Assembly: GCA_033439295.1 (NCBI GenBank)
Contig: JAVTLE010000007.1
Coordinates: 496,001 to 560,000 of the forward strand
Reading direction: 5' to 3'
Origin: Deuterostichococcus epilithicus
Taxonomy: Eukaryota; Chlorophyta; Trebouxiophyceae; Prasiolales; Stichococcaceae
DNA length: 64,000 bases
The first letter of the stretch is position 1, and the number at the start of each line of letters is the position of its first letter. The notes under the pieces are model-generated. The model was not told where the DNA came from. It did no database searches and worked only from the letters and a program-made list of their open reading frames with translations. Positions 8,845-37,396 of the stretch are shown in pieces. The position numbers and the translations under genes are program-made.

Positions 8845-11460
8845 TCAAGCAGATAGCTTTCCGCCAGGACTGCTCGCAGCTGGCGGGTGATCGAGACCCA
8901 GTATCACGAAAATGCTGCCAGCCTGACGGCGCGGGTCTTTGGGCGCCTGGCCTTCCTGCTCTTGCCAATTGGCGGCTTGGTCACTGGTGCTGCCGCCGTC
9001 GTCGACGACGCACAAATGATTGGGCTTGCCACCTGTTGGCGCATGCGTGCGCAGGCCCCGCCAGAGGAACAGCAGCCACTGGCGTGCTTGGGCCGCTGTG
9101 GCCGCATCGCCGCCAGGCGCTGCTGCGCCCGGTGCAGCAGCCGGAGGCAAGCGGCGACAGACACGCGCAGCGGTTCCTTAGCCTGCAGCAAGGTAGCAGA
9201 CGAACAGTGTCACTGAGGAACAGCAGGCTCGTGATGGGTGCTGGCAGACAGCTGCTCCTCTCGTGATTTGATCCCACATTGCAGACAAGAGGACTCGTGA
9301 GTCATCTGCACGTATCTGCAACCACCAACGGCAAGCGAAATCGGACGTCAAGGGCACACCTGGCCATGCTCTTCGTAACGTACGTCCCAGTCGATTGCAC
9401 CGCCACCCCAGAAGCCCCAGCAGTTGGCCGCAGGGCCGGCGTCAAATGCATTTGCAAATGTGCCGTCGGGACCAATCAGATACTCGAAGCGCTGCCATCG
9501 CAGCAACTCATTGGTGGTCAAGTTGCCTGCGGCGCACAGCGCCGCGCGCCCCGCCAGCCCCGCATTGAACAGTGTGCACGGGACCTGCAGTGTTGCACCA
9601 GACAAGATGTGAGCGGTCGAGACAAAACTCACCCGACCCATTGCCGTGCTGGGGATGCTTGCAGATATCTGAGGAACTGCAACCTCGAAAGCCCGATCTG
9701 ATCCGCCAGGCGGACTCTTTCTACGTAAATGCGAACTTGCGAGTCGCACCTGCAGCAGCCCCAAAAGGACAGTGCCTGGATGAGCGGCGATGGCAGCCCA
9801 TGCCGTGCCCGCCCCGACAGCTCCCGGCGTCGCAAGTGTGACGAGAAACGCCGCGGTCAGCCACAGGAACAGCAGCTGTCCGCCCAGCAGTGAGGCGGTG
9901 TACAACGTGAAGTATCGCACGTTGCCCCGTCCTACGCAGCTGTGGAGCACCTGCATCAGCGCGCAGTTGCCATCATTCACGTCTCTGTGTGGTGCTTCGT
10001 ATTTGAGATTGGCCCTATTCTTGCTGTTCCAAGCTGTGGCTCCAGGCAGGTGACCATGCGAGGAAGAGGTACTCACCGGGCAGTGATGGTCCGACTCGAG
10101 CACGCACCTGCCAAAACAGGGCGCTGTATTGGTTGTGGCTCCGTGTAACTAAGTCAAAGGTGGCAGAAGTATCTCATGCATGGTATTGCTGCATCTCTGC
10201 ATAACAGCCACGAGTTGTCACCTGTCGCACAAGCTGCAGTGCTTGGAGCGTAGCGGCCGAGACGCGTTGCAGGTGCCGCACATACCCATCACGTCACTAG
10301 TGCCGCCGGCGCACGGCAGAGCCGCCTCCAGGTCGTCAGCTGCTCGGAGCGTGTACCCAGGCGACACCAACACCGCGCTGCAAGACAGAAAGAAGCGGCG
10401 CTGCTTCTGCGATAATGCTAATACAGCTCAGGCTAGACTTGCCTCACAGCTGGCACCTGCATGGCCGTCAGCGCCTGCGAGTCTGTAGGTAATGGCGGCG
10501 CCTGTTGCACATCCTGTCAACCAGTTCAAGTGGGCGCACCAAGCGTGCAGCGGCAGCGCCATAGCACCAAGCGCCGCCAGCGCGATGCACGCCGGCCGGT
10601 GCTGTGGCAGGGCCGGCAGCAGCACGCCCAGCGCGGCGGCATAAACGCACGCCTCCAGCGAAGCGACGGCAGCAAGCGGGAAGCGTGAGGCGCTCATGAG
10701 GCTGCGAAGCGAGATGGCGCCGCCTGCATGTCAGGTGAACAAAATGCTATCCCTGACCCCATGACGAGAAGGCACTAGCATAATGCATCATGGCACAGAC
10801 GGACGTTTGCCACACACAGAAGACGCCGCACCTTTGACCACGATGACATGTACGCCGGCCAGGAATGCGGGGATAACCGCGGTAAGCAGCAGCCATGCGG
10901 GCAGCAGCTGTGTGAGGCAGATTGCTGTTGTCAGCAGTGCAAAAGCCGGCGGAAACAGTGCATCGGCATGCGGCAGCCGCGGCCGCCTGGCAGCGGCTGC
11001 AGGCGGCGAATCGCACTGCCCCTGCACGATGGCGTGTCTCGAAGCGCAAGCGCCCTGTCGGTGGTCTCGGCATCGACTTGGCTGCTGCTTTTTGCAACAG
11101 CTGGGCTGCTGGCAGTGGCCTGCCGCAGAGCCGCCGCTGCTCCATGTTGTTTCGACTGCAACACAAAGCAAACGGCCAACCCCCTCGCACGATGTTGTAG
11201 CAGCCGATTGAGCATCCAGCAATGAACGAAGCGGCAAGCGGGGTGCAAGCTGGAGGACACTGCCGACTGGAGGATGCGAGCCAGAAATTGCCAAAGATAG
11301 AGGCAACAAGATCGAAGACTACCTTCGATTGGCGCTGCGCCACATCCTCGTTGGCGCTGCGGCTTCTCGGCGGCACTTTCACTGCGACCGGATGGCCTCG
11401 TCGACGGAGTGATGAGAGATTGTGCCTCCGATGAGCCTGCTTCATGAAGGACAAACTCAT
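8845..11460 (-). CDS. DHHC-type protein S-palmitoyltransferase
   Basis: Membrane enzyme that transfers palmitate to cysteines of target proteins. The zinc-finger core is split over two exons: CGTCNASRPLRSKHCSLCDR (about 10205-10290) and CVLESDHHCP (about 10090-10120), joined across a GT-AG intron. The DHHC catalytic cysteine is present. The next exon starts near 9940 with SCVGRGNVRYFTLY, followed by a membrane segment (LLGGQLLFLWLTAAFLV). The exon at about 9350-9600 has the family TTxE motif (LTTNELL) and the NxFDxG-like block ANAFDAGPAANCWGFWGG. Upstream exons encode several hydrophobic segments at 10500-10700 and 10830-10960, and SPGYTLR at the usual DPGY position. The N-terminal exon (ATG at 11460 or a neighbouring frame) and the C-terminal exon (tail to 8845) are tentative. 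No ankyrin repeats are seen. Confidence 0.85.
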
Positions 11461-12390: not shown

Positions 12391-13557
12391 TCAAATATGG
12401 CTTGGCAGCGGCAGGCGTTTCTTCGTGATCTGCAAGCCACACGGCGCACCATGCAGTCGGAGTTGAGTTAAAGTTTTTGAGTAAGCAGTGCAAGCACGCC
12501 TCGTAACTGCGCCCATGGGTGTAGTGAATGTATCAACGTTGCAGAAGCTCTCAGCCTGTAGCCGGCTGACAGTCGAAAACATCAGATGTTTTAAGTGCAG
12601 GAGATTATTGCGACAGCCAGAACCCTGCTCCTTGGATGGGCGCACCTTCAGCTTGGCCTTCCGCATGACCTTCCCGGCCTTGGCGTTGGCCTTGGCCTCG
12701 ACCTTGGCATCGCGCTCCCGGTGCGCGGCCGCCCGGCGCACTAGCTGCGCCTGGGCGCGGGAGGCGCGGCTGCCGCCTGCGCCAGCCGCGGCGGAGAGGC
12801 TGGCATCCTTGCGGCGGTCGACGGCGGCGTTCTGGGCCAGTTTCGTATGCTTCGCAGCCTGCAGTGTTCACATGCACGAAGACATGATGGCCCGGGCTGC
12901 TTGTGGCGCACACTATCAACGAAGCTTACATTGAAAACCTCGTGCAACCAGAAGAGCAGTATCGAGTCTGCCGGATTTGCTTCGTCTGCGGGTACGTGTG
13001 CGAGCGCCTTGTTTCTGTGCACTGCTCACCCGGATGGCAGCGACCTTCTCCTCGGCGGGATGCAGAATTGCGGACGACGCGGCGCGGGCCACCAGCTCCT
13101 TCTGGTCTGCCTCCTCTTTGATGCGCTGTGCCTTGCTTTCCGCAGAGCTCGCGCGGCGGTGGGCACCGCCGGCTGTTGCTCCGCCGGCCTTGTGCCGCAG
13201 CTGCGACGCTTTCACTGACGCCTTGGCTGCCTTCTGCCGCACACCCTCGTGCTTCACGGACAAACTCCAGCCCTGGTGCCCGTTGTGATGGCCCCCGCCC
13301 GGCTGGCCGCCAACCGGGTGCTGGCCGCCGGGGTGGCCACCGGCCGGGTAGCCACCGTCAGGGTGGCCGCTGGCCGGGTGGCTACCAGCAGGGTGCCGGC
13401 CGCCGGGATGGCCACCTATGGGGTGGCCACCGGCGGGGCGGCCACCGGCATGGTGGCCGCCAGGGACGTACAATGTGCCGGGATGTGGCGCGCCACGGGG
13501 GACGGGCGCGTAGCCTGCTCCGCCACCTTCAAACTTGTGGTCGGTGCTGCAATACAC
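12391..13557 (-). CDS. GGHP-repeat protein with basic, lysine/alanine-rich C-terminal half
   Basis: Not recognised as a known family. Two exons join in phase 0: a first exon ending at 13030 (donor GTGAGC after VAAIR) and a second starting at 12858 (AAKHTKLAQNAAVDRRKDAS). The N-terminal part holds about a dozen imperfect five-residue repeats of the form GGHPx (about 13290-13475). It is followed by a charged helical region rich in K, A, R and Q, likely coiled coil (KASVKASQLRHKAGG, SKAQRIKEEADQKELVARA), and a strongly basic segment (KVEAKANAKAGKVMRKAKLKV). The frame opens after a plausible acceptor (TATTGCAG at about 13545) with no ATG, so at least one 5' exon is missing from the model. The tail to 12391 may also contain an unseen intron. 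A structural or nucleic-acid-binding role is possible but unproven. Confidence 0.55.
13290..13475 (-). repeat. 15-bp coding minisatellite (GGHPx repeats)
   Basis: Imperfect tandem 15-base units built on GGTGGCCACCCG-like sequence encode the GGHPx array of the surrounding gene. Variation between units is mostly at the fifth residue (A, I, G, V, D). Confidence 0.8.
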
Positions 13558-18892: not shown

Positions 18893-20440
18893 TCATCCCA
18901 CGACTTGCATGCCTGGCAGCTCCATGTTCATGTCTGCGACATCCCAGGGCCCGGATGGAATGGCTGCACGACGCTGAACGCCAACGAGGGAGATGGGGCA
19001 CACGAACATGACAAAACACAGCACGAACACGTACAGGCACAGTAGGAGCGGCGAAAACAGCAGCAGGGCCGCGCATGCCAGGCTGCAGATGGCAGTGGTG
19101 ATGCCCGACAGCGCCGGGTGCCGGTCTGTCAGCGAGTGCAGCGCGTACGGAAGAACCAAGTACACCTCCAGACTGAGCAACACCTGCAAGTGGCGACACT
19201 GGAGGATTTGGAACGTCGAACCTTGCCAGGGTCTATTCTGCCCGCCCGCCCGCCTGCGCGACCGGCTGCTGCACGCGGTTTGCAGCCGCTGCTTGTAGTA
19301 GAACAGCCTATTATACTGCTGCTGGTGCTGCTGCTGCCGACCTTGCAAAATCCTACGGCACACGACAACGGAGCGTGGCAACGCAAAGCTGCATGCTCAC
19401 CTGGCTGAAGACCTGGAGGTGGCTGTCCAGCCTGCTGGCGATGAGCACGGAAGCAAACACCGCGGCGGCCAGCGAGATCGCGCCGGCCGCTTTGTCCGTC
19501 AGTGACAGCCGCAGTCGGTAGTCGTGCAGGAACAGGTGCAGCAGCAGCATGTAGATTGCGACGGCGACGACCGTGTCCGAGCTGGTCGTGCGAGTCAGCG
19601 TCTGCGGGCACACAGCAGTCGGCAGCGGGTATACGAAAGTGAATTTGCATGAGCTGGTGCTTGGAGTCCGGTCCTGCAGGCGCACAGCAATGCCAGGGTG
19701 CGCAAGAGCATTTCATGCACACGCGAGGTCAGCAGACCAGCCGAGTGAACATTGTGTTGCGGCCAGCGTGTGCGAGTGTACAGCCGCCATGTGTGAGTTG
19801 GTGGGCAAGGATCATCAGCAGTGCCACAGGTGTCCATGGCAGGAGGCAGACAGGAAAGGAACGTGTCTCATCGGCGGAAAGAATCAAGTTTCGATATGCA
19901 AAAGGTGTCGCACTCGCAGTAGCGGTGACAGGAGGTAGGTGCCCGCAATCAACAGCGCCGTGCGGCGAACTGCCAGCCCAGCACGCCGCGATGAGCGAGA
20001 GCTGCCCATGGTCATGGTGGCAAGGGCGGCGGCTCCCACAAAGTCAAACAGCAGCAGGGTGGTGGGGCCCAGCCTGCCCTGCAGAGGGCGCGGTGACTGT
20101 GATTTGTTGCCAGCAGGGTGCCGCGCAGGCAGGGAAGCACGAGTGCAGTCCACCTCGCTCAGGAGCCAGACTGATAGCAGAAACATTCAGCAGCATGCGG
20201 CGTCGTGTTGGATGCCTTTCTGGCCGCCCTTACCTGATGCAGGTGGACCGTGACAGCGCTAACCACGCCAACAATGCTGATCTGGCGCGCCACAATGCTG
20301 GCGTCCGCCACGGTCTGACGGTAGCTCCAAGCCACGTCCCGCTTCAGTACCAGCGAGCTGAGGAAATCGTCATCGACGTGGTTGTCTGGCACAAGGCACT
20401 CTTGCCAAAGGCGCCGCCGCTGCCCGCCGGCAAGGTGCAT
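18893..20440 (-). CDS. PIGC: PIG-C / GPI2, subunit of GPI N-acetylglucosaminyltransferase (intact copy)
   Basis: Multi-pass ER membrane subunit of the complex that makes GlcNAc-phosphatidylinositol, the first step of GPI-anchor synthesis. Four exons join in phase 0: 20440-20234 (69 aa), 20078-19914 (55), 19601-19401 (67) and 19183-18893 (96 plus stop), giving 287 aa against 297 in human PIGC. Family blocks are seen in order: LWQECLVPDNHVDDDFL, then LTRTTSSDTVVAVAIYMLLLH, DKAAGAISLAAAVFASVLIA with SRLDSHLQVF, LPYALHSLTDRHPALSG, and near the end VQRRAAIPSGPWDVADM, which matches the conserved GPWDEA ending. It is transcribed away from the truncated GT61 copy. All donors except exon 2 (CGA|GTGCGA) look standard. 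Nothing is missing, so this is probably the functional PIG-C of the pair. Confidence 0.92.
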
Positions 20441-23817: not shown

Positions 23818-26800
23818 CTAGACAACAGGGGGTAGGATTACAGGCAGCTTGATGGGGAGCGCATTTACAGCGGCGTTGATAGTCTTGAAGATCTGTGCAA
23901 TGGGCAAAGACAGTGTCGTCAGTACCCATGGACTCGCTAATCCTCGTAACTGGATTGATATGCAAGAATTGCACATTACGTAGGGTCCGGTAGCATCCAA
24001 TCGTCATGCAGGTGTCAGCTAAGCGTAGACCGACGCACTTTCATGGACACACCCTGCGTGTGTTCCGGGAACGAAGTGGAACGGCCTTTTTACTTTCATT
24101 TGTGAATTATTGATGGCGACTATTTGGTACACATGGTACGCACCTGCTTGCCCTTGAGGGCGCTCAGAATGGGGGTGACGTCGGCGGCAGGCAGCTTGGC
24201 CAGGATGTTCACGGCGAGCTTCACGTCCACAGTTGCCGCAATCACAGCGATGATCTTGGCCTTAACCTGCAGGGGCATGTGTGCGACAAACCGTATGTCA
24301 GAACTTCCGATAATTCCGATGGAACTTGCACCAGAAGGCGGAGACGCGAAGTTGCAGAGCAGTAGTAGCTAGGTGAGCAGGTGAGCAGATCCGATGACGC
24401 ACAAGCTTTTCAGTTTTGCTGAAATTCAAATCTATCGTCTCCCTGTCGGCATCGCTTAGGCAGTACAGGCGCAGGTAGACCCTGATACAGTCCACCCGCC
24501 GTTGCCAACAGGACCAACACGAGCTGTATATTCAAGGGCGTCCAGTGGTTGCTGCACGCACCGTGATGGTGAGGATAGCAAAAATTTTGGCGACCAGGTC
24601 GAGGCTCAGTTGCCCGCACACAGTGGCGACGATGTTGACATCCAGGATGGTAAAGATTTTGGCCACGATCTGCATGGCACCCAGAAAAGCTCTTCTGCGC
24701 TGCCAGTCCATGGAATGCCACCGTGTTTCCCTCAATCACCCCCCCTTTCACACCCAACTACGTCATCAGTCCACACCACACGGGCTGAAACACATGACCG
24801 GCACAGCCCAACACCACCCAGCAGCTACTGCAGGCTGCGCTGCGACCCCACCGTGACATCCAGCAGGGCAAACAGCTGGACGAGGATGGCGATGTTCAGC
24901 TTGGCACAGATGGCAGCGGCGACCTGCACCCACGACGAAGCCACATTGGCAGAAGAACGTACGCACACCAACGAAATTTGCAACGAGGTATCCAAGAGGC
25001 CACAGCAGCAGCACTGTCGCTGCTGTGTGCATGTCTGAGGTCAACCTTCCTGTGAGCACCTTCAGTCGCATCGTGCACAATGCCTCTCCAACGGCTATAA
25101 GAGGCAGCAGAAGATGCACACCTGCACTGCAGCCTGGCAGGTCGACCCGCACAACACAATCCCGTTTGGGTTCCTGCACACTCAGGCGTTGCTGGGTGGG
25201 CGGGGACACACCTTCACGTCCAGGACAGCGAAGAACTTAACCAGCAGGGTGATTTCCAGCTTTGCAAGGATAGCGGCAGCAACCTGCAGGCGGGGCCAGT
25301 GACACAACTCAACTTGGGTTCAGGGCCCCAGAAGGGACAGGTTTTGTAGTTTGCAGACGTCCCCGGACCACTTTGTAAGCCCAGACGGTGTGCCCGCAGT
25401 GCAAGGCCTTCGCATGTGACACCACTCCGAGCTGCGGGGCAGGTCCGCCAGCAGCTAGTCAATGGAAATGCTTATTAATGATTGTGCTGAGCTATGGGCG
25501 CACCTCGACATTAAGGAGGGCGAGGATGCTGACCGCCAGGCCGATGTCCAGCTTGGCAAACACTTGAGCGACGATTGCGACGTCCAGGTACGCGCAGATG
25601 GCGGCGACAACCTGCGTGTGCGTGCAGAGGTGACGGTGTGATGTGCAGGCCGGCGGCGCAGCCCGCACAGTGCTGTGCAGGCCTCGCTCGGCTCAAGGCT
25701 TGACATTTGGATGCTTTGATGCGTGCTTTGATTGGGTGCTTTTAGAATTGCACCCGTGGCCGGACGGCCATCCACACAATCTGGCGGCCACTCTCAGACA
25801 TGTGCTGCAGGCGCGGGTGCAGGTGTGCACTGGCCTGGCCGCTTCTGCTTCGATGGTCCGGCATAAGTGCTACCATGTACATAAGTGCATACGTCGACTC
25901 GCAGGGGCTGCTGCTTACCTCGACCTTCACCAGGACGAACAGCCTAACCAGCAGGTCGACCTCCAGCATGGCATAGATAGCAGCAGCCACCTGCAGCCGG
26001 TGTCGCACAAGCAGGCTCATGTACAAAGCGCCAAGAAGGTGTGCAAAGTCATGCATGACTTGGAGGGCAGTGCGCAAGACACGGCGTCACTGGTGCGTAG
26101 ATGCCCGGAAGTGCGAACAAGTGGGATGCGCAGAGCGGGTGCAGCCTCAAGCGTGTCTCTGCAACGTGGGCAGGATCAGTAGCAGTTGTGTCGCCCGCTC
26201 ACCTGAGCGTCCAGGAGAGCGATGATCTTGACCACGATGTCGATGTTCAACTTTGCGAACACCGTCGCTGCCACCTCGACATCCAGGAATGCCACGATGG
26301 CAGCAACCACCTGTCACCACAGCAGTCAGCAGGCTGTTGTGCACAGTCTGGCGCCTGTATTTGACCTGCTGCTGTGACACAGCAGCCTGGAAAGTGGTGC
26401 GCGGCAGGTGCTGTTTGTAACACATGATATCAAGTGTGAGCCGCACGCAGTTTGGCCGGGCCATTGCCAATTGTTTGTCCGCAGCGCAGGGTTACATCTG
26501 CTACAGGGCCGAGCCAGCAGTGCACCAGCGTCGCTTGCGCTGGCGCACTGCAAACACCATAGCAGCCACACCACACAGTGGGCACATGCATCTGCCGACC
26601 AGCAGTTAGGAGTGTGTGGGCCTCGTCGACACCTTGACATCCAGGGTGGCGAAGATGTTCAGCAGCACGTCGATCTCCAGCGTCGACAACACCGGGCCCA
26701 GGATCTTGGCATCGATCAGGCCGCAGAGCTGCAGGACCACCTGTGGGCAGCATCGGAATTCGTCGGCCACAATTCGGACTGTATGTTGCTCTAAGTAAGT

Positions 26801-29800
26801 ACGACAGCCCTAAGTAAGTACGACAGCCATCACATCCCAGGACAAGTTCGCCGAAGCTCGCAGCAGCTCCGCAGCACGCATCGCATTGTTGCCGTCATTG
26901 CATGCTGTCTATTGACGCAACAGGCAAGCGCTGCGCCCGTCAGCTGCGCAACAGGGGCGGCAGCATGTGTGGCAAACGAGCTCGGACTGTGACTGCTTCA
27001 GAGTCTGGTGGGCTGTGCACCTCGACGTCGAGGATGGCGAAAATCTTGACCAGCAGGGTGACATCCAGCTGGGCCAGCACCGCCGCAAACACGGGGATGT
27101 CGATGTAGGCAACCAGCTTGATGATTACCTGCACATGCAACGGAAGTGCGCCATTCGGACAGTGCCAGACGTGGCAAAACCATAGCAACCCACACGATAC
27201 CAGTGCATATGACAAATAAGCTGCGGCTTGCGGTCGCACCTGCACATCCAGCACCGCAAAGATCTTCACCAGGACCTTCGCCTCCAGCTTGGCAAGAATC
27301 GGGCCGAAAACTTTGATGTCGAGGATGGCCGTGAGGGCGGCAATCACCTGCAGGGCGCAACATCGAATAATTATTGGTGCTGCGGGCTCTGAGGAGTTGC
27401 GGGGTGCGGCAGGGTTGCAGCGGGCTTTGCAATTGTCAAGTTGGCTCACACCACAGCCGTATATCAGTTCCCGCATGCCACAGCCATGCATCGAGTCAGC
27501 ATGTAGCAATGGCGTGGGATTGCTGGGTGCAAGTAGAAGAGAGGTCCGGGTCCCGTGTCTCGAGACATATACATAATTTCACAAGGAAATGAGCACAGGT
27601 GTGCAGGCGCACCTTCACGTCCAACACGGCGAAGATTTTGACCAGCAGGTCGACGTCCAGCTTGGCGAAGATATTGGCAACGATCTTGACGTCCACCAAG
27701 GCGAGGATCTTGGCGATGACCTGCGGCACACACACACCGTTTCCTTCCACTGTGGTGGCACTTGCGCAGCCCACAGAGGCCAGTCACGAGCGATGCACGA
27801 GTGTGCTCGTAAGCTGGCATTATGGCTGCGCTGGGTGGCGTCCACAAGCCTGGCAGGCTGTGCGGCTGACACGAGTCATGAGTACATGTGTACCTTGACA
27901 TCCAGGATGGCGCACAGCTTGACGGCCAGGTCCAGGTCCAGCACAGCAATGATTGCAGCCGCCGCCTGCACAAAATCACAGCACAATCACTATGCATGCC
28001 AGGTGTGGGACGAAACCCCTGACATGAAGTTCTGCCTCCACTCGCGCAGAAGTGTGCGAGTGGTTGGAAAGACTGCACTCAGGGGGACTGGCAATGATGG
28101 TGCTGCATGCCCCTGTCAACCTAACATAAAAGGCATGCGCATGCACTTGTGACCTCCCCGTGGTGCCTTGCTGGTGCCTTCCCGACTTCGTACAAGGGGT
28201 GGGACTGACAGTGTCAATGCCGCCAGGGATGGCAGCTGGATGGGTATGGGCACGCCTTGACATCCAGCAGAGCGAAGATTTTGCCGACGATTGTGATGTC
28301 TAGCTTGGCGAAAACAGTCGCGAGGATGTTGACATCGATGTAGGCGCATACTGCCGCAAACACCTGCACAGCCTTGGGCTCGGTCTCATCAGCCTTGGGC
28401 AATTGCCATTACTGGCTGCCCCACACATGCTCGCCGCAACAATGCACTTGGTGCACCGACATGCTCGAAGACGTTCACCATCGCCTGGGCACCCAGCACC
28501 CGCGAAGGCTGTATATCTGGGTTGCGTTCGACCAGGCATGCAGGCCATGCCGCAGCCGGCCTGATCTCGCTCGTGGGTGCGCTAGCAGCAGCTACGGCAT
28601 GCATGGTGCACGGGGGCGCCGGGGAGTGGGCTGCATGCTGACTGCACACCTTGACGTCCAGCACGGCGACCAGTTTGACCAGGTTTGGCACGTCCAGCTT
28701 AGCAAGCGCCGCGGCCGCCACCTTGGCGTCAATGAGGGCGACCAGCTTGGCGACCACCTGTGCAGCAGCATGACCACGCGGCCTCAGACTAGTGGACTGC
28801 CGCCGCTCTGGATGGCGCCGCACCCGGGTCGCCAAGAGTGTCAGTTGGCGGATGGGCGACACTGCAGCTCAGACTGCGATCGATCAATGCGTTGCACGTG
28901 CAAAATGCTGGCTGCACGGCCCACTTTTAAAGCTGCCAAGCGCAAAGCGCACGCATGTGCAACACGGCTGCAATGATGCGGTGCATGCCATGTCTGCACG
29001 CAGTAGGCAGGGGACTGCAGCGACAGCTCTCGTCGCAGATCGAGTGGCTGGGCTGAGGTGGTGGGACACGCCTGGCAACCATCGACCGGTGCAGTCTATC
29101 TGTCCCTACAACTACATGATATCGACAGCATCATGATCCACTCTGCAGCATGCCAGCAGGCACCACGGTTGGGCGCATCCATTTGCAGCACAAAGCTGCG
29201 CAGGATGGCCCAGGCTGCTGCGCGATGTATGTTGTGGCTTTTGATCGCACACCTTGACGTCCAGCTTGGCGAAGATGCTGGCAAGGAGGTCGGCGTCCAG
29301 CTGCGCACAGATCTTGGCGGCAACCTTCACATCGAGCTTGGCGAGGATTTGCACAACGACCTGCAACACACCAGCGAGTCACCGTCATGTAAATCAGGGG
29401 ACACAGCAGCGCGACCATGTGACAACAGTCATGCACATGGTTGCAAAGCCGCTGACGCGAGCTGCATGCATGCATGCCAGTTGAGCAAAGCACGCGCCAC
29501 CTCCTGCACTGCTCTCACCAACCAGATGAGAAGAGTAAAGAATTGCCAGAGGGCGCACGTTAACATCGAGGCGGGCGCAGATCTGGGCGGCCAAACGCGC
29601 ATCCAGCTGCGCAATGATGTTGACAATGACATCGATGTCCAGATCCGCAAAGAGAGAGACTACGGCGCCGTTGTCGATGTCGATGACTTTCTGGTAAAAG
29701 AGCTTGTTCAGGCTGCCCACCAAATCCTGCCAACATGCACAGACATGCATGATGGTGCGAAGAGAAAACATTGTGATCTGTTGGCTTGGGTTGTAATAAG

Positions 29801-30136
29801 CAGCACGCACATGTAGCAAATGCATACTGCGGCGTCGGGCATTCGCAAGACAACACATGCATCGCGTTGTGGGGCACACAGGACACCGATAAGGCGTGGC
29901 AAGCATGCCGAACGACGATGACCCACCTCGTTGGCCTTCTCGTGGTCGTTCTTGAAGAGGCTGACGAGTTGACCCTTGGCCGACTTGCCACTGGCGCCTT
30001 TGATGTAGGAGTCGATGATGTCGCCTTCATTGCCTGCGGCGGGACAACGACCAGCGCTGGGCAAAGTTTTGAGGAGGAACGTACGAGGATCCGGAACTCC
30101 ACATTCCATCTGCCAACCTACGACTTCAGGGGCCAT
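23818..30136 (-). CDS. Novel 12-residue LDV-repeat protein encoded by symmetrical exons
   Basis: Unrecognised. I can place 18 exons: 30136-29927, 29726-29559, 29360-29253, 28757-28650, 28363-28256, 27965-27894, 27720-27613, 27347-27240, 27128-27021, 26740-26633, 26310-26203, 25990-25919, 25611-25504, 25283-25212, 24923-24852, 24669-24562, 24266-24144 and 23892-23818. All joins are phase 0, giving about 647 aa and a TAG stop. Fourteen exons are exactly 108 or 72 bases, which is three or two 12-residue repeats. A typical exon reads VIAKILALVDVK then IVANIFAKLDVD then LLVKIFAVLDVK. The pattern is charged, three hydrophobic, K/x, I, hydrophobic, A, x, L, D, V. Exon 1 (GNEGDIIDSYIKGASGKSAKG) and exon 2 (LNKLFYQKVIDIDNG) are non-repetitive; exons 17-18 diverge and end in LPVILPPVV. 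No signal peptide is evident; the start at 30136 is tentative. Even positions are all hydrophobic, compatible with a beta-solenoid or a lipid-facing surface. Function unknown. Confidence 0.8.
24562..29726 (-). repeat. Array of 15 exon modules carrying about 40 twelve-residue repeats
   Basis: Exon-intron modules recur every 230-500 bases. Each exon ends in L-D-V-K/Q/E/N/T and a donor, mostly GTG or GTA, once GC (28256). Introns are short and not obviously alike, whereas the exons keep DNA motifs such as TTGACGTCCAGC and TTGGCGAAGAT on the plus strand. The array appears to have grown by duplication of whole exons and by loss or gain of single 36-base units within them. Confidence 0.8.
26790..26828. 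repeat. Tandem duplication within an intron of the LDV gene
   Basis: The unit CTAAGTAAGTACGACAGCC is repeated head to tail in the intron between the exons at 27021 and 26740. Confidence 0.8.
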
Positions 30137-32214
30137 TCCTAATCGTGACCCTCATGTGTCTAGCACGACTGGTGTTCACGCGCCGGCTGCCCACGCTGGC
30201 GCGGCGGTGTTGGTGCTGTGAGCTGAACGCTGCTGCCAGTTTACGTCAGGCACTCGAGCGTCAGCGATGTTGTCCCGGACCATACTCATAACACTCCGGT
30301 CTTCGAAATTAATTTCGAGTTCATCGAATCACCACGGGCAGGTGAAACACCCTTCGACTGGTTGACCGCGGCGCTCATGAGACAGCGCAGCGTATTGCAT
30401 CCACATTACACTTGATGCATCGGCATGCATGTGTTGTCTGTGCGGTCACATCAATCAGGTGACCCAATGAGGTGCGGCAAGTTGGCACAGCAAACTGCGA
30501 GGGTATTGCAGTCCAGGCCAGGGTTACGGACTGCAGATTGAAAGCGCGTCATTAAGTCAGGCATGCCGGCAGCTGACATGTCATGTCGTCGCGCGCTCAG
30601 GTGGGGTGTCTCATTCTATAGGGGCAAAGATCGCACCGTTCGTCCGCAGTTGGCGAGCTTCGCTCCCTGTGGCCGACAAAACCAGCAGAAGAACAACGGC
30701 AGCGCGGCCCATGGCATTTCGCATGGCTGTATAGCGCATGGCGCACCGCCTTGTTTATCCTGCGACCATGATGAGTCAGTGAGTCACGCACGAAAAGTTG
30801 TTGCCTCTGCTCAGCGGGCCGGAAACATCCGTGTCACTGAGACCGATGACGGTAATCAGAGATATTTTTTCTCGACATGTGCATGAGCTCATGAGCCAAC
30901 GAGACCACCGGCACAACCTGCCTGCATCTCCCTAACACGCAGTCCGTCAATCAATCTGACAGGTAGTCACCATCTAGCGCAGCATATGTCGCAGTCTCTT
31001 GGTGGGCTGTGCATCTGAGTGACTACGGACATGACTACGGACATAGCGTGCTGCAAAAAACGACATGTGGATCGGGCGGCGCCAGAAGTCACACTTGCGC
31101 ACAGTAGTACAAGTAAGTATGTGCCACATGAAGGATGGTCTCAACCTGCTGTCCGAGTCGCGACCGTCTGAGCGAGTCGGAGGTAAGATTATGGACGGCA
31201 AGAATCATGGCGCAGAGTGCTGACACAGACGCGCGTAGGCGTTCGAGTCCCAGCCACGGTTGTCGGTTAATATGAGCACCAGAAGCCGCCTGATGCTCGG
31301 ACGTTTCCTCACGCCTACTCAAACGAGCACAGGCACAGCCCCGCAACTAGCCCTATATATCTGGGCAAGCCCCCCTGTGCGCACCCAGATGTGCGCCAAA
31401 AGGCATTGCCGGAAGCGGTCAACCCAGGCTGTCATCACGAGCGAGGCTCGACCGTTGTCACGCGGCGGCAAATCATGCGCATAGTGTCTCCAATGCAATG
31501 CACCAGCGGGCGAGGCCGATGCACCACACAGACACAGCAGCAACCCTCAGAGACGCATGCAAGTTGTGTCGCAACAGCGTCACCGCAGCAGCCTCAACCA
31601 GCACTCCTCATGCATGGAGGCGAAACGCCTCGCAGTAACAGTCGCCACAGAGACGCAATCGCTTTGCGTCGCACGACTGCTATCACAAACAGCCATACGC
31701 GAACATTTTCCTGTCTTTTGCGAAAGTATTGCTGCATGCAAGCCCGCGAGACCCATGTTGGCACCCAAGACCAGGGGAGGTGTGCCGCAGCGCATACCTG
31801 ACTACGAAGGGAGACGGAGGCGGAGGTTGAGTGGTCGACGCGGCGCGATTTTCTGACAGTGAACTGTGTGAATGAAAACAGTGATTTGCCGATAAAAGCT
31901 CATATTGTGATCTTCTGCGACGGAAGGAGCTGGGGCGAATCTAGCAACCGTGTGGTACCTGTTGCGTTGTTCATATGTCGGGCGCACCTGCGTAGCGGTA
32001 CGATAACATTGTACCCGCACTCCTCCTACCAAGGTATACGGGTACAGGTTCCATATGGAAGGCCAGATTCACCCCAGCTCCTTTGTCCTTCCGTTAAAAA
32101 GGTGAAGAAACGGACAATCGTATGGTACAGCCTTGTGGTACAGCCCTGTACCACACGGTTACCCATCTTCAGTGCAGTGGATGAGAGGACGCCGGGATCC
32201 TCCACAACTCACGC
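30137..32214. other. Intergenic region of about 2.1 kb, no gene recognised
   Basis: This stretch lies upstream of the LDV-repeat gene and left of block B. No reading frame with domain or splice support was found. It contains a short tandem repeat (GACTACGGACAT twice, about 31019-31043) and a 13-base perfect inverted repeat pair at 31946-31958 and 32148-32160. Confidence 0.5.
31946..32160. repeat. Possible small inverted-repeat element
   Basis: AACCGTGTGGTAC (31946-31958) and its exact reverse complement GTACCACACGGTT (32148-32160) bound 215 bases. TGGTACAGCC is tandemly repeated just inside the right end. No target-site duplication is clear, so a MITE-like element is only a possibility. Confidence 0.35.
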
Positions 32215-35572: not shown

Positions 35573-37396
35573 ATGTGTCAGATCACTCCCACTGCTTTCG
35601 CGTTGCTGCTGCTGTACACACTTTGGGTCTGCTCGGCTGCCGCTGATTCTCGACGGCACGATACTGATTTTACGCATCACCTGGTGTACTTTGGCATCGA
35701 GGACGTGGACTGGGTCCTCGGCTGTCCGGTCGCCAGCCACGCCTGTTTCTACTCCTTTGCGGCAGACATCGGTGGGTCACGATGCCATGCCTGGCTGTTC
35801 TTGCACGTAGTGCTGTGCCAAGACTGCAAGCTTGCCAAATCATGACCCGCCACCGTGACGGTGCAGCTGAGCCCGCCGGCGCAAGCCAGCGCCGCCACCC
35901 ACTAGACGCCTGCCACGCCGTCAGGCGCAATTGCAACAGGCATGGGGAGTGCATCAAGACGCGGGACTGGTGCATCGTGCGGCGCAATCTGCCAGCCTGG
36001 CTGCTGGCGGCATTTCCGAGCCGCTGGCCCGCAGAGGACCGGCCGGCCTACCTGTTTGGCCGCACCGACGGCCTGAACCCGACGCATGTCGCCAGCCTGC
36101 ACTTTCTGCCGCTCGTCAGATGGATGGACCAGGCGCACATTGCGCCAGGCCAGGCACACTCCATGCTCAATGCCAGCCTCGCCAAGCATCAGCGCCCCCT
36201 TCCCACCTGACATTCCTGAGTCTCTGCGACGGCGTCAGCGTGACCTGTGCATGCAGGATATCGGACTCTGCGCTTGCATCCAAGAGCCATACTGGGCGGG
36301 TCACCCATGCTCTCCTTCCTGGCTCACGCATCGCAGGTGCTCATGGTGTGGGACAATGTGCCCGATGCGGGGCCGGGTGCATATGGCCTGGGCCTGGCGT
36401 CTGCTCTGGGGGAGACCCGCTGGCTGCCGGACATCAGGGGCCCGATCGTCTTCAGGTGGGAGCCGGCCACCCGCCACGACCTGCCTGGCATTCTGTAAGC
36501 ACGCGTGTGCAAGGATGTGAGGACAGCTCGATTGTAGGTCCTCGACCTGCCACTGCCGGTTTGAGCAGGCGCATCCGGCTGGGCGAGTTTGGGGACCTTC
36601 GGTTTCCGTACCCCCTGGACCAGCACGCATCCAGCTTGCAGCCCGACGCGGCGTTCCAGCGGCTGGCGGGCCTCATGAAGCGGCACTACGGCCTCGCGCT
36701 GAGACCTGCGCAGCGCCCAAAGGTGGTCATCGCGCTGCGCCGGCACACCCGCATCCTGGCAAACGCGGCCGAGCTGGCAGCCCGGCTGCTGGAACTCGGC
36801 GTCCAAGCCTCCATCGCCGACTTTGCGGGCATGACGCTCGAGGAGCAGGCACGTTCCTTCGCAAACATATGACACACGGGCACCTGCATCTGAGGCTGGA
36901 TAGTGGGACCGTCCCGGGCCTATCCCCTGAGCAAACCTGGGCAGATGTGCAACAAATATCCAAAACCTTCTACGCAACGCAGGTGCGAACGGTACACGAC
37001 GCGGCGGTGCTGGTTTCGGTGCACGGCGCAGACTGCATGAACCTCATGTTCCTGCCGGAGCGCGGGTCGCTCGTGGAGGTGCTGCCGGCACACCACGGCT
37101 ACGGCGTCCCCTGCGTGCTGCGCAAGGGCGACTACTACAACCTAGCCCGGCTGCTTGGCAAGCAGTACACGGAGTTCGTCAGCACGTCCAACAGCACCAT
37201 CCTGCGGGACTCGGGCAGGCAGCTGGCTCACTGGAACCACGTGAACTTCATCGGCGAGGTGACAGTGGACGTGGACGCAATTCTGCCGGTCATCACTTCT
37301 GCGGCGCTGCTGGCGTGCAGCGGCTGCGCCGATCTTGAAAACCACACCAGGAGACAATTGAAGCAGGATTCTGAGGTCAACCGTTCCTTGAACTGA
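35573..37396 (+). CDS. GT61-family glycosyltransferase (DUF563), surviving copy
   Basis: Golgi-type transferase of the family that includes plant beta-1,2-xylosyltransferase and animal EOGT. Exon 1 (35573-35771) starts at ATG with a signal/anchor (ALLLLYTLWVCSAA). Exon 2 starts at 35906, in phase, and is cysteine-rich (CNRHGEC, RDWCIVRR). Later exons encode QVLMVWDNVPDAGPGAYG (about 36330-36497), IRLGEFGDLRFPYPLDQH through LLELGVQASIADFAGMTLEEQ (about 36570-36849) and, from about 36983, VRTVHDAAVLVSVHGADCMNLMFLP. The last matches the GT61 signature VHGAxLTNxLFMP. It ends at TGA 37394-37396. The LEEQ/VRTV join needs a GC donor (CAG|GCACGT). The join between exon 2 and 36330 is unresolved: copy A has CAG|GTGAAT there but this copy has CAGATGGAT. 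Sugar and acceptor are unknown. Confidence 0.82.

Follow-up and report, generated by a model that had tools for sequence, protein, structure and literature searches.

To our knowledge, natural superhelices built from 12-residue helices occur only as short bacterial domains, namely those of MgtE, FliG and FlgY. The N-terminal domain of MgtE (MgtE_N; Pfam PF03448; structures 2yvy, 8gps and 8gpv) is cytosolic and precedes the CBS and membrane domains. Here, we describe a gene of the alga Deuterostichococcus epilithicus, referred to below as the LDV-repeat gene, whose repeats share with MgtE_N the 12-residue short-helix period and the register of the terminal Leu and the helix start. The gene is located on the minus strand of a 64,000-nucleotide (nt) stretch of DNA (positions 496001–560000 of contig JAVTLE010000007.1, in a genome of 46.8 Mb and 21 contigs). 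This whole stretch, to which all positions below refer, is called the window. We put the probability at roughly 0.55 that the gene product is a secreted or endomembrane superhelix of the MgtE/FliG (ARM-like) type, made of 41 short helices and serving as a stacking scaffold. The host is photosynthetic, since PF00504, the chlorophyll a/b-binding family, has 39 exon-level matches in its genome.

The MgtE_N profile comprises 102 positions, compared with about 490 residues in the algal repeat. The algal units are also far more apolar, carry V at sites usually occupied by Pro or polar residues, belong to a predicted secreted product and are encoded as one module per exon. The ARM-like domains of FliG likewise form a short-helix superhelix, whereas FliG belongs to a bacterial motor and has few repeats. 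The eukaryotic alpha-solenoids (ARM, HEAT, TPR, PPR, Sel1, ankyrin and PUF) share the arrangement of tandem helices in an elongated superhelix, but their units span about 30–45 residues and contain two or three helices. A term search of a 2024 review of alpha-solenoids returned no mention of MgtE (PMC11514114). SLC41 proteins, the eukaryotic relatives of MgtE, are reported to be without the MgtE N-terminal domain (PMC6410215). ARM-like motifs of FliG are described as stacking between molecules (PMC7355467). For FlgY, an E-ring protein of Campylobacter jejuni, a predicted signal peptide, an MgtE_N-like four-membered right-handed superhelix and higher oligomers upon crosslinking are reported (PMC11870540). 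FlgY is bacterial, its superhelix spans 56 residues after a long helix, and it is likened to the algal product by description, not by sequence.

The repeat unit and its match to MgtE_N

The first-pass annotation of this DNA had proposed about 40 copies of a 12-residue unit in strictly modular exons, and we indeed counted 41 units in an unbroken register (residues 86–577 of our 642-residue model). Residue identity was 0.30–0.43 at spacings of 12n (n 1–9), whereas it averaged 0.10 at the others. The accompanying statement that the 72- and 108-nt exons each encode two or three units was borne out as well, but a second level of repetition had escaped it: a 36-residue module of units a, b and c, with the 72-nt exons containing b and c. 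In the 38 units of exons 4–17, identity was 0.465 within these classes and 0.330 between them, a difference reached in 0 of 5000 label shuffles. As like units are more similar than unlike ones and the 72-nt exons are of the b-c type, the module consists of three 12-mers. The commonest residues per class (with some ties) are VVAKIVALLDVK for a, VAAAILAKLDID for b and LLVKIFALLDVK for c. Positions 4 and 12 are mostly polar, and position 8 is polar mainly in b units. Ala occupies position 3 in 22 and position 7 in 36 of the 41 units, and every one of the eight Cys residues of the array is at unit position 6.

The array is 72% apolar or aromatic, with a grand average of hydropathy of 1.55 and 231 of 474 19-residue windows above 1.6. 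This composition favours the main functional rival to self-stacking, according to which the same helical superhelix would bind or carry lipid (wax, algaenan precursors, membrane) via an apolar groove or flat face. So do positions 1, 7 and 11, which are apolar where the MgtE chains examined mostly have polar residues or Pro. However, more residues are buried in about 41 stacked helices than in a short MgtE domain, and this could by itself account for the apolarity. No lipid-binding family was found among the Pfam matches. We consider lipid handling unlikely.

The whole 642-residue protein matched PF03448 with 123.6 bits (gathering cut-off 25.9), and MgtE_N was the sole Pfam family above cut-off in it. 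The earlier view that the unit belongs to no named repeat family is refuted by this match, which lies far above the cut-off; a strong match to an existing family was one of the refutations that the first-pass annotation itself had named. When four separate 96-residue blocks (eight units each, 32 of the 41 units) were compared to the profile, they scored 40.7, 21.8, 34.2 and 26.8 bits, three of them above the cut-off. All four matched in one register with equal lengths of protein and profile, and this register is the one expected from the 12-residue helix period of the solved MgtE chains. In the solved chain 2yvy, 72 residues form six ungapped 12-mers, as in PKAKAAEVLSHL SPEEQAEYLKTL. The closing Leu of 2yvy falls on the profile position of repeat L9, and thus LD-VK-VVAKIFAK aligns with the MgtE helix end, cap and helix, respectively.

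Since repeats can score by composition, controls were performed on 20 units (240 residues). The real sequence scored 62.2 bits against PF03448, and the same residues redealt within columns scored 61.6, while MgtE_N was not matched by one full shuffle, one reversal or one parity-keeping permutation. Random permutation of the 12 positions abolished the MgtE_N match in 13 of 15 cases and left 31.8 and 38.5 bits in the other two, over the cut-off and under the real score. The permuted controls also gave scattered weak matches to other Pfam families. Thus, the match depends on how the positions are ordered, yet non-relatives can reach the profile. Because two of the 15 permuted controls also matched, descent from MgtE, as opposed to convergence on a 12-residue pattern, is unproven by these sequence comparisons.

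Besides the two permuted controls, several other comparisons weigh against a relationship with MgtE. The alignment of the repeat with three MgtE chains by hhalign was not significant (probability 2.9%). Hydrophobicity correlations with three MgtE chains were best (0.51, 0.63 and 0.43) at other shifts, versus 0.35–0.43 at the expected one. Searches of the PDB by phmmer and with a four-row profile gave no match to the repeat, and neither did a scan of NCBIfam. Together with the hydrophobic moment and the V and I content treated below, these contrary results weaken mainly the case for common descent and less so that for the fold. None of the Pfam families of the eukaryotic alpha-solenoids named above was matched by the product. 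At E up to 10, the Pfam search listed only MgtE_N and FliG_M (PF14841; 7.1 bits, E 8.5, below its cut-off of 25), with the ARM, HEAT and TPR models unmatched.

The PF03448 match would also suit a true descendant of the MgtE N-domain that still senses magnesium. However, no MgtE membrane or CBS domain was matched in the product, and the only PF01769 match of the genome is just below the cut-off, on another contig. Negative and positive charges of the array almost cancel out (40 D and 8 E versus 38 K and 3 R), with 31 of the 40 D at position 10, and the product appears to enter the secretory pathway (see below). Such a magnesium-sensing descendant is very improbable.

Predicted fold of the array

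The first-pass annotation pointed out that alternating hydrophobic positions would give a continuous apolar face in a beta structure and fit an alpha-helix poorly. Its arithmetic is sound, as the averaged unit has its highest hydrophobic moment at 180 degrees (0.515, versus 0.146 at 100 degrees), and for positions 1–10 only, the moment is 0.426 at 180 and 0.287 at 100 degrees. The beta structure itself was not borne out by structure prediction. AlphaFold2 predicted helices only, three for exon 8 (27613..27720; 36 residues; predicted local distance difference test score, pLDDT, 68; predicted template modelling score, pTM, 0.31) and four for exon 3 (29559..29726; 56 residues; pLDDT 68, pTM 0.38). 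When the exon 3 model was compared to the PDB with Foldseek, the first match was MgtE, and most of the later rows carried FliG or flagellar C-ring titles, so that the structural matches mostly belong to MgtE and the flagellar switch.

Several observations count against a helical superhelix. The two models represent single exons of 36 and 56 residues at moderate confidence, and the Foldseek matches are weak, with a best E of 2.6. The moment at 180 degrees favours beta structure, and V and I, both beta-formers, are abundant in the array and occupy positions 1 and 11. The apolar residues at position 8 in most a and c units leave a narrow polar side, and the b-c exons depart from a strict three-helix period.

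A beta-solenoid or beta-sheet filament would account for the strict alternation at odd positions, and the mean Chou–Fasman propensity is slightly higher for beta (1.17) than for alpha (1.13). Set against this are the lack of a single strand in either model, the in-register match to MgtE_N, and the scarcity of Gly (6), Pro (4) and Asn (10) in the 492 repeat residues, a low supply if every 12-residue coil has to turn. A capped helix is also consistent with Asp at position 10. We therefore regard a beta fold as very unlikely, whereas the models make a helical, MgtE/FliG-like fold highly probable. If the 12-mer folds as modelled, into a helix of about 10 residues and a turn, the odd-even hydrophobicity is misleading about beta structure, because the polar residues at 4, at 12 and, in b units, at 8 lie four apart on one side of the helix and D10 lies just before the modelled helix start.

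Predicted export, conservation and exon structure

In our favoured model, the gene has 19 exons, all on the minus strand, and a proposed exon 1 (30637..30724; alternative starts at 30739 and 30712) is placed 5' of the start chosen in the first-pass annotation. It would encode MRNAMGRAAVVLLLVLSATGSEA followed by RQLRTN. Its product probably represents a canonical signal peptide, with a basic start, an AVVLLLVL core and S-E-A cleavage. The phase-1 donor of exon 1 fits exon 2 (29927..30033), which encodes an N-terminal non-repeat segment. Of the 2305 ATGs that the two strands of the window contain, four passed a filter requiring a signal peptide plus a phase-1 donor, with thresholds chosen after exon 1 had been seen. 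Three of the four are in the exon 1 frame, which leaves two independent sites in 128 kb of strand. The other passing ATG, at 13060 on the plus strand, possibly marks the first exon of another secreted protein.

The product could instead be an intracellular scaffold, with translation starting from position 30136 or elsewhere. Exon 1 was placed by its sequence features, exon 2 can be read in frame from the ATG at 30136, and the 642 residues include no N-glycosylation sequon. In addition, bacterial MgtE_N and FliG are cytosolic. On the other hand, a signal peptide with a phase-matched donor occurs at so few independent places, one of them just upstream, although the filter was post hoc. Taking both sides together, we consider a signal peptide likely to be present and a non-secreted product improbable.

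The GC content of third codon positions was 0.79, versus 0.57 in introns. In the 38 of 41 units encoded by exons 4–17, single-base codon differences between like units comprised 581 synonymous and 521 non-synonymous ones (1102 in total), a ratio that, read without a fitted neutral model, suggests purifying selection on the repeat units. A protein search with an exon alignment (E up to 1, 4609 candidates) yielded three metagenome open reading frames (ORFs) as relatives, with E of 1.6e-8 to 2.5e-5. ORF P0003 matches exon 3 (34 of 54 residues identical, 25/36 over the compared segment), P0002 matches exon 5 (28650..28757; 25/36, next-best exon 20/36) and P0001 matches exon 17 (24562..24669; 29/36, next-best exon 17/36), of which it retains the unusual CGQL and LTI residues. 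The comparison covered 11 exon segments of 36 residues, leaving out the 24-residue exons and exon 18. The residues past the exon end (VR, VH and VR) fit a GTG-type donor at the same place, as far as protein letters can tell. P0002 and P0003 are both on 1668-base contigs, possibly one and the same. None of the three ORFs reached the PF03448 gathering score (best 13.2 bits); P0003 weakly resembles MgtE_N (E 0.13), and P0001 and P0002 are without a Pfam family.

On this sequence evidence, the LDV-repeat gene is real and conserved, because the three ORFs match exons 3, 5 and 17. Since each ORF best matches one exon among the 11 segments, these exons were probably already distinct before the lineages split. 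The earlier description of a real repeat protein with very few relatives thus holds, with three ORFs found in the collections searched. Searches of the own genome with a DNA query and two 36-residue queries, which detect single exons only, gave 2, 11 and 13 matches, all within this locus, and the gene is therefore probably single copy. The PF03448 profile matched nothing in this genome, including this gene, presumably because the exons are too short, and this result is uninformative on paralogues. No relative was found by phmmer with the 642-residue protein in a collection of 5.8 billion proteins (scoring was limited to the 7999 candidates with the most shared words) or with a 216-residue two-row alignment as protein query (8000 candidates scored). 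With an alignment as query, genomic and viral contig collections yielded 90 and 83 pattern matches, respectively, none of them a confirmed relative. There was no Rfam match at gathering score within the window. The literature searched, mostly open-access papers and hence no proof of absence, yielded no description of this protein.

The first-pass count of eighteen phase-0 exons, fourteen of them of 72 or 108 bases, was confirmed by three-frame translation and splice sites: 16 repeat-bearing exons plus exon 2 and the last exon. Four are exactly 72 nt and 10 exactly 108 nt long, and all of these are joined in phase 0. The product of about 647 residues claimed at the time follows if ATG 30136 is the start (18 exons, 647 residues); our 19-exon model gives 642 and adds the signal-peptide exon. 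All 18 acceptors of this model are AG, and 17 of the 18 donors are GT, the remaining one being GC. Exon 3 (168 nt) encodes an N-terminal cap helix and units 1–3. Based on splice sites and module labels, single a-b-c modules of 108 nt are encoded by exons 5, 8 and 17, already located above, and by exons 4 (29253..29360), 6 (28256..28363), 9 (27240..27347), 10 (27021..27128), 11 (26633..26740), 12 (26203..26310) and 14 (25504..25611). The GC donor, at 28255, follows exon 6 and makes the next intron a GC-AG intron. The b-c modules of 72 nt are exons 7 (27894..27965), 13 (25919..25990), 15 (25212..25283) and 16 (24852..24923). Exon 18 (24144..24266, 123 nt), delimited by splice sites, contains degenerate C-terminal units. 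Exon 19 (23818..23892) encodes a C-terminal tail ending in LPVILPPVV before a TAG stop, and an earlier in-frame acceptor is possible. The intron between exons 9 and 10 (27129–27239) is 111 nt long, in frame and stop-free, so that a transcript retaining it would keep the reading frame and encode 37 more residues. In about 400 nt past the stop codon, we found no TGTAA polyadenylation signal.

Elsewhere in the window, an ORF at 18893–19381 (minus strand) matches GPI2/PIG-C, a subunit for glycosylphosphatidylinositol-anchor synthesis (PF06432, E 1.8e-10). Two adjoining ORFs at 35931–37396 (plus strand) have sub-cut-off matches to glycosyltransferase 61 (PF04577) and are probably exons of one gene. 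A sub-cut-off match to DHHC palmitoyltransferase (PF01529, E 9.6e-5) was detected at 9348–10103 (minus strand).

Proposed architecture and its meaning

In the arrangement that we propose, each unit would form an alpha-helix of about 10 residues and a two-residue turn, with D10 as the N-cap just before the helix start, and stacking of the 41 helices would yield a single superhelix of the MgtE_N/FliG (ARM-like) type, far longer than any of this type known to us. One exon would correspond to a 36-residue module of helices a, b and c, and duplication of phase-0 exons would have lengthened the rod. Positions 2, 5, 6 and 9, including the Cys-bearing position 6, would make up the core, and positions 3 and 7 the close-packing side. 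Polar positions 4 and 12, plus 8 in b units, would line a narrow exposed side. Most of the other surface would be buried, with each helix packed by its neighbours before, after and one module away, in keeping with a helix surface that is largely apolar.

The product would then serve as a scaffold with a structural role at the cell surface or in an endomembrane compartment. Molecules would stack through their rod ends and apolar flanks, in the manner of the ARM-like motifs in FliG and FlgY. We favour a secreted or endomembrane self-stacking rod because the FliG and FlgY motifs stack between molecules and FlgY has a predicted signal peptide; self-stacking as such, drawn from this analogy, is a tentative proposal. 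It is conceivable, with rather more doubt, that the alga independently evolved, or took from bacteria, a superhelix of single 12-residue helices and lengthened it beyond 40 of them. The result would be an extracellular rod that forms polymers and in which the number of exons determines the length. With similar reservation, this rod might represent a class of eukaryotic alpha-solenoid with a minimal module, in which every 12 residues form a helix and every exon encodes a block of three.

The array also carries a caution for the reading of repeats, since its flawless odd-even alternation of hydrophobic residues apparently reflects short capped helices and not beta strands. If the proposed architecture is true, a secreted array of about 41 helices, with a three-helix block in each exon, would show how exon duplication makes a solenoid grow. 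It would give rod designers a natural template and is possibly a new component of the algal cell surface.
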